DNA of 64,000 nucleotides from Haloarcula laminariae (GCF_025457605.1 NZ_JAMZFY010000002.1:124001-188000), one strand, 5' to 3'. Shown: positions 58,672 to 61,403, numbered from the stretch's first letter. Translations and numbers: made by a program. The notes: generated by a model not told the origin, from the letters alone.

Positions 58672-59403
58672 TCAGTCGCGACGGCCGGCAAACAGCCCGG
58701 CCGCCGCCAGGGCCGCAAGCGCGCCGACGGCGCCGAACCCGGGTCCGCTCCCGCCGGTCGTCCCGGCCGCAGTCGCCGTCGGGCTCGGCGCGGGCGTCCC
58801 GTCGGGCGCCGTCGACGACGTGGCGACGACGCTGAGACCGTCGAGCTCCGCGTCGGCGGCGTAGACGAGACGGCCGTCGCTGCTGTTGGCCGGCCCGGGC
58901 GAGACGCTCGTCACCTGATACCCCGCCGGGAACACGACGACGAGCGGGCGGTCGAGCCCGTCGCTGCTGGCGAAGGGCTCGCCGAACGTCAACAGCCCGT
59001 CTTCGGCCGCCGCGAGCCCCGTCCACGTGACCGAGTAGGTCGCGACGCCGGTCGCGTTCGTCCGTGAGAGCGTCAGCGAGCTGTTGGTCACGGCCATCTC
59101 GCGGTCGGTCCGGGCGGACGTGTTCTCGGCGAGCGACTGCCAGCGGGCCGTCTGTCGCTGCTCGTAGGCGTCTCGGGCCGTCTCGTTGCTTCGGAGGTCG
59201 TCGAAGGCCGCCTGCTCGCTCTCGTCGTCGAGGTCGTACGTCGAGACGAGCGTCAGCCGCGCGTCGCCGTCGGCGGCGAGGTCGACGGTCAGCGACGGCT
59301 CGGGCGGCGCATCAGTCTGGGCCGCCGCGGCCGGCCCCGCGACTGCACCGACCAGCAGCGCGCTCAGAGCGACACTCGTCAGCAGTGTGTGGCGGCCGGA
59401 CAT
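58672..59403 (-). CDS. PGF-CTERM surface protein sharing an ectodomain with the 60265 regulator
   Basis: A 243-aa exported protein: Sec-type signal peptide (about 1-28, ends in AAAAQT), an ectodomain (about 38-185), a Thr/Pro/Ala-rich linker (about 195-215, PAPSPTATAAGTTGG) and a C-terminal PGF-CTERM-like tripartite signal (GSGPGFGAVGALAALAAAGL then GRRD). It is probably cut and lipid-anchored by archaeosortase A. The ectodomain matches that of the 60265 protein (DREMAVTNSSL/GREMAVDNVSV and similar flanks), a family I recall as DUF7345. It starts 3 bp after the middle gene. Confidence 0.82.
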   Translation of the reverse strand: MSGRHTLLTSVALSALLVGAVAGPAAAAQTDAPPEPSLTVDLAADGDARLTLVSTYDLDDESEQAAFDDLRSNETARDAYEQRQTARWQSLAENTSARTDREMAVTNSSLTLSRTNATGVATYSVTWTGLAAAEDGLLTFGEPFASSDGLDRPLVVVFPAGYQVTSVSPGPANSSDGRLVYAADAELDGLSVVATSSTAPDGTPAPSPTATAAGTTGGSGPGFGAVGALAALAAAGLFAGRRD

Positions 59404-59406
59404 TAG

Positions 59407-60153
59407 CTAGTCTTGGCCGTCCGGACTGGTAGTCTCATTGGTTCCGGTGGAACTGTCGCCGTCGGCGGGCCCCGGCTCGTCGGGGGTCGACGGCGCCGTG
59501 TCGCCAGTCCGGTCCGCTCCGTTTTCGGTCCGGTTGCCGGGCGCCCCGGTCCGGTCGTCGGGGCCGCCCGCCTGTCCGACTCCCTCACCGGCGATACCGC
59601 GCGCGATTTCGGCCGTCTCCGGTCCCGTGAGGTTCGCGGTGCGGTCCGAGAGCGTCCGGATGGCGGTGGCGTTGACGCCGTTGGCCTCGAGCGTCTCGGC
59701 GGGCAGCCCGCTCGCCGTCTCGTTGGTCCGGTCGACCATGCGCTCGGCGTTCCGGCTCTCCGCGACCAGTCCGGCGATGCGGGCGCGGTACTCACCCTGG
59801 CTCAGGGTGCCGTTCGCGCGGGCCTGTTCGAGCGCCTGACGCCGGTCTTCGAGGGCCGCGACGCGCTCGCTCGTCCTGTTGAGCTGGTCGGCCACGACGG
59901 CGGCTTTCGCGTCCGAGCTGTTGGCCCGGGCGACGCGGATGCCGTAGGCGCGGTCCGCTATCTCGCCGTCGAGTTCGGCCTCGCCGACGGCGACGACGCC
60001 CGAAAGCTGGGCGCCGGGCGCAACGCTCTCGTTGCCGGTCGTGTTCTCGCTTGCCTGTTCAGTGTCGGTCTGTTGGGCCATGACGAATGGCACCGCCGTG
60101 AGCGCACCCACCACGAGTACCAGCGCGACCACGGTCGAAATCGTCCGTCTCAT
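59407..60153 (-). CDS. Exported coiled-coil protein of the same cluster
   Basis: A 248-aa protein with an N-terminal signal peptide (about 1-26, TVVALVLVVGALTAVPFVMA), a coiled-coil region (about 85-150, RTSERVAALEDRRQALEQA) and a low-complexity Gly/Thr/Asp/Pro-rich C-terminus. No family is certain. Tight spacing (3 bp to the next gene, 111 bp from the previous one) and shared direction place it in the cluster. Its acidic, Thr-rich tail suits an S-layer-facing linker. No sorting motif is visible at its end. Confidence 0.75.
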   Translation of the reverse strand: MRRTISTVVALVLVVGALTAVPFVMAQQTDTEQASENTTGNESVAPGAQLSGVVAVGEAELDGEIADRAYGIRVARANSSDAKAAVVADQLNRTSERVAALEDRRQALEQARANGTLSQGEYRARIAGLVAESRNAERMVDRTNETASGLPAETLEANGVNATAIRTLSDRTANLTGPETAEIARGIAGEGVGQAGGPDDRTGAPGNRTENGADRTGDTAPSTPDEPGPADGDSSTGTNETTSPDGQD

Positions 60154-60264
60154 CTCACTCGGGCATTGGCCCCGTATCAGTATATAAACCGCCGACGGTC
60201 AGCCCGGTTTGCGGACGATTAAGCCGAATTAAATCGCCCGACAGCGGCGAGTCGAGGGACGGTG

Positions 60265-61314
60265 TTACGAGTCGTCGTCCACGTCGGTCAGGTCCGTGTC
60301 CGGGAGCGTCACGACGTTCTCCCGGCCGATGCGGAACGTCTCCAAGTCGCCGTCCTCGCGGAGGCCGCCGACGACCTGGCTGGTCTTTGCGGCCGTCCAG
60401 TCCAGTTCGCTCGCGACGCGCTGTTGCTTGATGCGGCCGCCGTTCTCGCGGAGGAGTTTGAGCACCTGCTCCTCGTTGCTGAGCAGCTCCGCGGGCGGTG
60501 TCTCGTCGGTGTCGGCGGTTCCGCCCGCGCCGTCGTCCGTCGCTGGCGTGTCCGCGGCCGTCTCGTCGGCGACCGCGTCGTCGCGGACGTACCGGTAGAC
60601 GCCGTAGCCGCCGGCGGCGAGTATCAGAACCGCGACCACGGCGAGGAGCGCGTCCACCAGCCCCGAGCCGCCGACAGCGTCCCCGAAGGGCTTGGACTCG
60701 TTGGTGACGACGACGCGGGGTTCGTCGTCGCCGAATGACTGGGGCCCGCGCCACGTGACCGACCGGTCGCTCCGCTCGTCGGCCGACGGGCGGACGCTCG
60801 CGCGCCGGTACTCGTCGGGCCACTGCATCGTCAGGGTCGCGTTGCGGTCGAGATACAGCCCGGCGACGGCGTCCCCGGCCCGGATGTGGGTGTCGTTGAC
60901 CGCCGCGAAGTTCGTCCACCGGAACTCGTAGGTGACGACGCCGTAGGACTGGCCGACGTCTTCCCGGGTGGTCTCGACGGAGACGTTGTCGACGGCCATC
61001 TCCCGCCCGGTCGCGTTCTCGCCGGCCCGGGCAGTCCGGGTCATCCGGTCGCGGAACCTGTCGGTGTAGACCGATTCGTTCGCCCGGATGTCCGCCCGCA
61101 GGTCCTCGAAGGCCTGCGTCTCGTTGTCGTCGGTCAGACGGACGCGGTAGTCGATTGTCCACACCGCGTCGCCACTCGCCGTCACGTCGGCGGTCATCAC
61201 GACCACGTCGGCGTCGACGGACTGCTGGGCGAGGCCGCCGAAGGCGGCGCCGGCCGCCGTCGGCGCCAGCGCCGCCGCCAGCAACAGCCCCAGGACGATA
61301 CCCACTCGTCGCAT
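60265..61314 (-). CDS. Membrane-anchored winged-helix regulator with ectodomain
   Basis: A 349-aa protein: signal peptide (about 1-24), an exported domain (about 33-205) homologous to that of the 58672 surface protein, one transmembrane helix (about 218-236, VDALLAVVAVLILAAGGYG), an acidic linker (about 240-268), then a cytoplasmic winged helix (about 275-335, NEEQVLKLLRENGGRIKQQR and SELDWTAAKTSQVVGGLRE). The layout is that of a one-component transmembrane transcription regulator. It is the first gene of the cluster; the divergent small membrane protein gene starts 89 bp upstream. Confidence 0.84.
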   Translation of the reverse strand: MRRVGIVLGLLLAAALAPTAAGAAFGGLAQQSVDADVVVMTADVTASGDAVWTIDYRVRLTDDNETQAFEDLRADIRANESVYTDRFRDRMTRTARAGENATGREMAVDNVSVETTREDVGQSYGVVTYEFRWTNFAAVNDTHIRAGDAVAGLYLDRNATLTMQWPDEYRRASVRPSADERSDRSVTWRGPQSFGDDEPRVVVTNESKPFGDAVGGSGLVDALLAVVAVLILAAGGYGVYRYVRDDAVADETAADTPATDDGAGGTADTDETPPAELLSNEEQVLKLLRENGGRIKQQRVASELDWTAAKTSQVVGGLREDGDLETFRIGRENVVTLPDTDLTDVDDDS

Positions 61315-61403
61315 TCGTGTTCCCGTTTTCCCGTCACCGACTATATGGCTTGTTGCCGCGAGCGGGCCACAAGGGGTTTGCCCGTCTGCCGGAAAGACCC
61401 TGT

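Follow-up and report, generated by a model that had tools for sequence, protein, structure and literature searches.

A predicted membrane-anchored winged-helix regulator, its putative exported partner and a conserved promoter repeat array in haloarchaea

Introduction

How information flows from the haloarchaeal cell surface to a promoter is poorly known. In a 64,000-nt stretch of Haloarcula laminariae DNA (hereafter the window), three consecutive genes, which we call P1, P2 and P3, raise this question at a locus that is class-wide and experimentally tractable. An earlier note on this DNA had read them as a single surface-sensing switch, in which a membrane-spanning regulator (P1) acts directly on DNA and shares its outer domain with a surface-anchored protein (P3). 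Here we ask which of these genes belong together, which protein is the likely partner of the regulator, and on which DNA the regulator would act.

Results

The three reading frames are intact, and all lie on the minus strand at the coordinates given in the earlier note. P1 (60265..61314, 349 aa) encodes a predicted membrane winged-helix regulator with its exported part outside. It comprises, in order, a signal peptide, a DUF7345 ectodomain (residues 42-169, 60808..61191; PF24036, 112.7 bits against a gathering cut-off of 27.5), a single membrane helix (residues 218-243, 60586..60663), an acidic linker and a DUF7343 winged helix (residues 277-338, 60301..60486; PF24034, 95.8 bits against a gathering cut-off of 27.6). 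In the structural model, strands and two long helices form the ectodomain (~37-205), with pLDDT values of ~97 over most of the DUF7345 region. The membrane helix, modelled at the same residues, is hydrophobic and followed by basic residues, and the winged helix (280-336) has MarR/ArsR/HsmR-type domains as Foldseek neighbours. The domain scores and the model bear out the description of P1 as a signal peptide, an outside domain, one membrane helix and a winged helix.

Foldseek matches to the P1 ectodomain were weak and consisted of FMO antenna proteins, at E 3e-6 yet a TM-score of 0.19, and Mycobacterium LppM, with a TM-score of 0.38 on the target. A distant fold link between DUF7345 and FMO or LppM is possible. 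The P3 profile also matched FMO weakly by sequence (E 0.05). A search of the PDB for sequence relatives of P1, P2 and P3 gave none that was convincing. P1 is 75% identical to the protein of its closest named relative, H. rara, and DUF7345 was present in 292 of 292 Halobacteria genomes sampled, plus part of the remaining phylum.

P2 (59407..60153, minus strand, 248 aa) encodes an exported helical DUF7096-like protein with a signal peptide, a helical domain (residues 46-188, 59590..60018; AlphaFold2 pLDDT >90 over most) and an acidic disordered tail at its end. It scores 25.9 bits against PF23379 (DUF7096), compared to a curated cut-off of 27. This cut-off is passed by some P2 homologues and by the partner proteins of two further regulators described below, P1b and P1d; the scores were 35.4 bits for the homologue L038, 49.5 for the P2 of a divergent locus and 107 for the P1b partner. 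A C-terminal membrane helix is absent from P2 and from the homologues inspected, and a fold search of the P2 model against the PDB gave no match with E <0.3. P2 had been described as an exported coiled-coil protein; export and an all-helical model hold, and we amend the description by the lack of a membrane anchor and the acidic disordered tail.

P3 (58672..59403, minus strand, 243 aa) starts 3 nt past the P2 stop and is followed on the same strand by argG, argH and more arginine genes. It combines a DUF7345 ectodomain (residues 39-161, 58921..59289; PF24036, 83.8 bits) with a PGF-CTERM sorting signal (residues 216-243, 58675..58758; TIGR04126, 31.2 bits against a cut-off of 24.5) that has the PGF motif, a hydrophobic stretch and a basic end. 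The cognate archaeosortase ArtA is encoded in the same genome (TIGR04125, 337 bits against 75). These scores agree with the earlier reading of P3 as a P1-like ectodomain carrying a PGF-CTERM signal. By BLASTP, the P1 and P3 ectodomains share 33% identity over ~173 residues (E = 5e-15), and at this level of sequence similarity they are true homologues, the shared blocks seen earlier reflecting real homology and not chance.

To determine which genes travel together, we searched one set of 116 haloarchaeal genomes separately for P1, P2 and P3 and paired the matches by coordinates. Among 81 strong P2 genes, 58 lie by P1 only, 7 stand in the order P1-P2-P3, 7 in P2-P3 pairs without P1 nearby and 9 by neither; 72 of the 81 are within 2.5 kb of P1 or P3. 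P2 is found just 5' of P3 in 21 of 25 P3 cases, and at eight loci in named genomes the gap between them is only -26 to 54 nt, which suggests that P2 and P3 form one message. A set of named genomes (Haloarcula, Halosimplex, Halorientalis, Halorubrum, Natrinema and others), which overlaps partly in species with the 116-genome sample, has P2 near P1 at 67 of 79 P1 loci. Counted by genome, P1 and a strong P2 were both present in 75, P2 only in 1, P1 only in 15 and neither in 25 (Fisher p = 5e-14, uncorrected for phylogeny). On these neighbourhood and co-occurrence counts, we regard P2 as the hub of the gene neighbourhoods. The conserved core is P1 plus P2, and it is P2, rather than P3, that stays constant as a partner.

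The view of the locus as a single system therefore stands in part: functional linkage of P1, P2 and P3 is supported, but the trio is not a unit, given its full order at 7 of the 81 P2 loci. Regular co-occurrence of all three genes in other genomes was not borne out. P3 is patchy and absent from all eight congeners compared, each of which has the order P1-P2-argG, and P2-P3 pairs occur without P1. This patchiness rules out an obligatory three-gene unit. At two loci that lack P1 and P2, a P3-like gene lies directly 5' of argG (L044:7852-8532 and L053:7203-8201), which looks like a remnant of a P1-P2-P3-argG order.

The H. laminariae genome has four DUF7345 genes, namely P1, P3 and two P1 paralogues. 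The paralogue P1b is divergent to a gene for an exported DUF7096-DUF7094-Fn3 protein (Fn3_arc; L035:5277-7771, C2, ~577-580 kb), so the pairing of a DUF7345 regulator with DUF7096 is found twice in this genome. The subfamily P1d, likewise divergent to a DUF7096 protein, is a further independent pairing. No DUF7096 neighbour was seen beside a third regulator, P1c, also DUF7345-DUF7343 (L036:6092-7201, C1). The divergent P1b layout recurs in many haloarchaea, in some with a TGACGTTTTAT-like element and without a 10-bp array; none of the P1b/DUF7096 divergent promoters scored high for such arrays.

We observed a conserved stretch in the P1-P2 intergenic region, 5' of the TATA box of P2 itself (TTTATATA, 60181..60188, minus strand). 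In the window, it is an operator-like array of 10-nt direct repeats, TTTAATTCGG CTTAATCGTC CGCAAACCGG GCTGACCGTC (60194..60233, minus strand), and it is conserved class-wide. P2 promoters carry 3-5 copies of the 10-bp-phased unit GTTAATCCGG, the array typically ending ~15 nt 5' of the TATA box. A palindromic operator, which a dimeric winged helix would lead one to expect, was considered and rejected, as an imperfect inverted repeat in the window resolved into direct repeats across homologues.

A position weight matrix (PWM) of the array was trained on 62 P1-P2 loci and tested on 40 held-out P2 promoters from other contexts. The median score was 24.8 bits in the held-out promoters, compared to -11.5 bits in 910 other promoters, whose 99th percentile was 8.3 bits. 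A scan of the repeat period peaked at 10 (26.6 bits, versus ~16 at 9 and 11). When only Haloarcula loci were used for training, 78% of 81 other loci exceeded the control 99th percentile. The P2 array is kept with P1 upstream (P1-P2), downstream (P2-P1) or unlinked, and in P2-P3 pairs without P1. Seven later loci, six with P2 far from P1 and one from the genome G065, scored 30.0-32.5 bits. In Halosimplex pelagicum (L092:9127-12727), the order is P1-P2-P3-P2', and the second P2, after P3, has its own array.

Within the window, the three-copy core at 60233-60204 scored 28.3 bits, whereas the best of the other, non-overlapping sites reached ~5 bits. The exact P2 site is unique in its genome, and a pattern search allowing up to 3 mismatches returned this site and one weak three-mismatch site only, which speaks against a wide regulon there. 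The array is very rare outside P2 and the X genes described below and is nearly private to these. At the promoter of P1 itself, only BRE/TATA-like elements are conserved in the Haloarcula alignment, among them CATATAG (61341..61347, minus strand) in the region divergent to the small91/ligT side. Plain autoregulation of P1 is thus not indicated, because its own promoter, in the arrangement of the window, has no array.

The subfamily P1d offers a comparison between regulators. Its recognition region is typically WS[KA]SKTSRV, the P1 counterpart being WTDAKTSQV, and its genes are divergent to P2 genes that P3 follows. In the 10-nt arrays at P1d promoters, the unit is a different one, GTGCAAACGG. 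In cross-validation, the P1 unit was preferred at 94 of 97 P1-type loci and the P1d unit at 18 of 19 P1d loci. One of the three P1-type exceptions, L047, is probably P1d-type: its P2 is long, P1 does not lie nearby, and the P1d unit gives a score of 32.4. The two types also stay distinct inside one genome (30.0/-5.3 vs 4.9/26.8 in G097; 28.8/-2.6 vs 11.0/27.7 in G072) and coexist with a less clear separation in G078. Of all the evidence, this matching of operator type to regulator type speaks most strongly for the view that the arrays would be read by P1 and P1d themselves. A conserved operator-like array that changes with the regulator subfamily gives strong indirect support to the earlier proposal that P1 may act directly on DNA.

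A strict genus-wide array search gave 31 matches in 21 genomes, compared to 1 for the reversed control. It revealed a second recurrent site, between a bifunctional-nuclease gene and the gene of a small exported acidic protein, X (L191:840-2171, with equivalents at L194, L195, L198, L201, L204-L206, L212, L215 and L216). The divergent promoter of X has P1-type arrays, often two in the same orientation and ~41 nt apart. None of the X members tested reaches any Pfam cut-off; they share the core LPxQVPDxVxxIHxxIxxFL...LSDLTPGD, and several of their genes are near P1. Arrays exceeding the 99th percentile of the controls were present in 26 of 34 X genes, and in 13 of the 19 outside the seeds and the pattern search, two of these 19 having already been among the top-scoring controls of the PWM test. 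The X candidate of the H. laminariae genome is a weak one, at 12.5 bits and without a clear signal peptide.

Discussion

We propose that P1 is a membrane-anchored activator of P2, and of P3 where it follows, through the array, with P2 as partner and P3 as an optional anchored copy, a reading in which we have moderate confidence. As a one-component transcription factor, P1 would sense outside the cell through its ectodomain, and its cytoplasmic winged helix would bind the 10-bp-phased direct repeats that immediately precede the BRE/TATA region of the P2(-P3) promoter. Judged from promoter architecture, it probably activates that promoter; activation is favoured because the array lies just upstream of BRE/TATA, where archaeal activators usually bind (PMC5512572). 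The exported P2 would most likely bind DUF7345 outside the cell and modulate P1. We infer this binding because P2 regularly accompanies both DUF7345 proteins and because DUF7096 partners lie beside three regulator subfamilies. By analogy, P2 might be a co-sensor like ToxS or a feedback inhibitor like CpxP. P3, probably made from the P2 message where present, would be a surface-anchored copy of DUF7345 that holds P2 or competes for it, and in some genomes the X family would be added to the regulon. As to the signal, our guess is the state of the envelope or of export. Counting against this proposal, 15 genomes hold P1 without a strong P2. More tentatively, and with some doubt, DUF7345-TM-DUF7343 activators on phased arrays may express a DUF7096 partner, P3 as decoy or scaffold, and X. 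Haloarchaea would then have an envelope-sensing circuit complete in itself, of which at least two orthogonal regulator/operator types can coexist in one genome.

P1 might instead repress through the array, or another regulator might bind the array with P1 as a co-inherited neighbour. Repression is known for some archaeal regulators, P1's own promoter has no array, and in G065 a P2 gene has a perfect P1-type array (L231, C2 779500-783500; 30.0 bits) while that genome gave no P1 match at E 1e-30. The latter could reflect a lost regulator, an assembly gap or another binder, so this array may be served by a different regulator. However, the array type tracks P1 versus P1d even inside one genome, the P2 array persists whether P1 is upstream, downstream or unlinked, and its site upstream of BRE/TATA favours activation; we consider repression or another binder unlikely, while giving it an appreciable chance. 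The proposal of the earlier note, that P3 binds the P1 ectodomain or shares an external ligand with it, P2 being incidental, draws on their homologous ectodomains and on complete P1-P2-P3 sets in several genera. Yet most P1 loci lack P3, including those of the eight congeners, P2-P3 pairs occur with no P1 nearby, and the constant member, which also bears the conserved promoter array, is P2. The arrangement of the loci is more readily explained by P2 as a shared partner than by direct pairing of P1 with P3, and we regard the earlier proposal as improbable.

We give very little credence to either of two further explanations. The genes could be unrelated neighbours held together by general synteny upstream of argG, as the conserved order DP2-PPC-ligT-P1-P2-argG in the Haloarcula group might suggest, but the same genes are paired again at unrelated genomic positions in Halorubrum, Natrinema, Halobellus and others, as P1-P2, P2-P1, P2-P3 and divergent arrangements. 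Alternatively, the repeats could be a histone or DNA-bending signal and no operator. Periodic AA/TT steps can position archaeal histones, and the array has such a 10-bp AA periodicity. This periodicity was absent, however, from 910 upstream regions of the same loci (lag-10 0.05 vs 0.21 and 0.37), and the motif has specific letters, TTAATCCGG or GTGCAAACGG, and hardly occurs outside P2 and X genes.

On our preferred reading of P1 as an activator acting through the array, the locus offers a membrane-bound factor, a predicted DNA site and a predicted extracellular partner. It also has a built-in control, in that another type of regulator can occur in the same genome with a site of its own. Three domains, each so far without an assigned function, would thereby become testable parts of one circuit. 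DUF7345, DUF7343 and DUF7096 were named in no paper of the open-access literature searched, an absence that is no proof of novelty.

Among archaeal regulators, P1 has the anatomy of the transmembrane transcription regulator (TTR) class, with a DNA-binding domain and a transmembrane region in one chain; a survey of this class, in which single-pass forms predominate, is a bioinformatic census by domain (PMC10269533). ArnR and ArnR1 of Sulfolobus are likewise membrane-bound one-component regulators, activators that bind promoter DNA (PMC6396743). Unlike P1, they have an N-terminal HTH (PMC13286277). They control archaellum and pili genes, and the parts of these accounts that we consulted describe no exported partner or anchored homologue. 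EarA, which acts on a Methanococcus archaellum promoter, is a winged-helix activator with four short sites right upstream of BRE/TATA, similar to the arrangement proposed here, but its sites are 6 bp long and the protein is unrelated and lacks a DUF7345 sensor (PMC5512572). In E. coli, the outer domain of the sensor CpxA is the target of CpxP, a small exported protein whose own promoter CpxA controls (PMC4160245). This parallels our proposal for P2, although CpxA-CpxP is a two-component kinase system and we found no homology.

The closest likeness in working is to ToxR/ToxS, TcpP/TcpH and VtrA/VtrC of enteric bacteria (PMC9214523). These too have a single-pass membrane factor with a cytoplasmic winged helix, and an adjacent gene encodes an extracytoplasmic partner, as P2 would at most P1 loci; a feature of ToxR-type systems (PMC10467113) is comparable in style to the 10-nt array. 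However, the topology of P1 is reversed, with signal peptide and sensor first and the winged helix C-terminal, and its sensor is DUF7345 and not the VtrA/VtrC fold. We found no homology, and the 50 Foldseek matches listed for the DUF7345 model included no VtrA, VtrC or ToxR periplasmic domain. In co-component systems the partner is tethered, whereas P2 is all-helical and without a membrane anchor. Because of this untethered partner and the non-homologous sensor fold, we do not file the locus as a co-component system and consider it similar in working only. A surface-anchored copy of the sensor domain, P3, also sets it apart. In conclusion, the locus may be an archaeal counterpart to bacterial ToxR-like sensing, and one that is directly testable.
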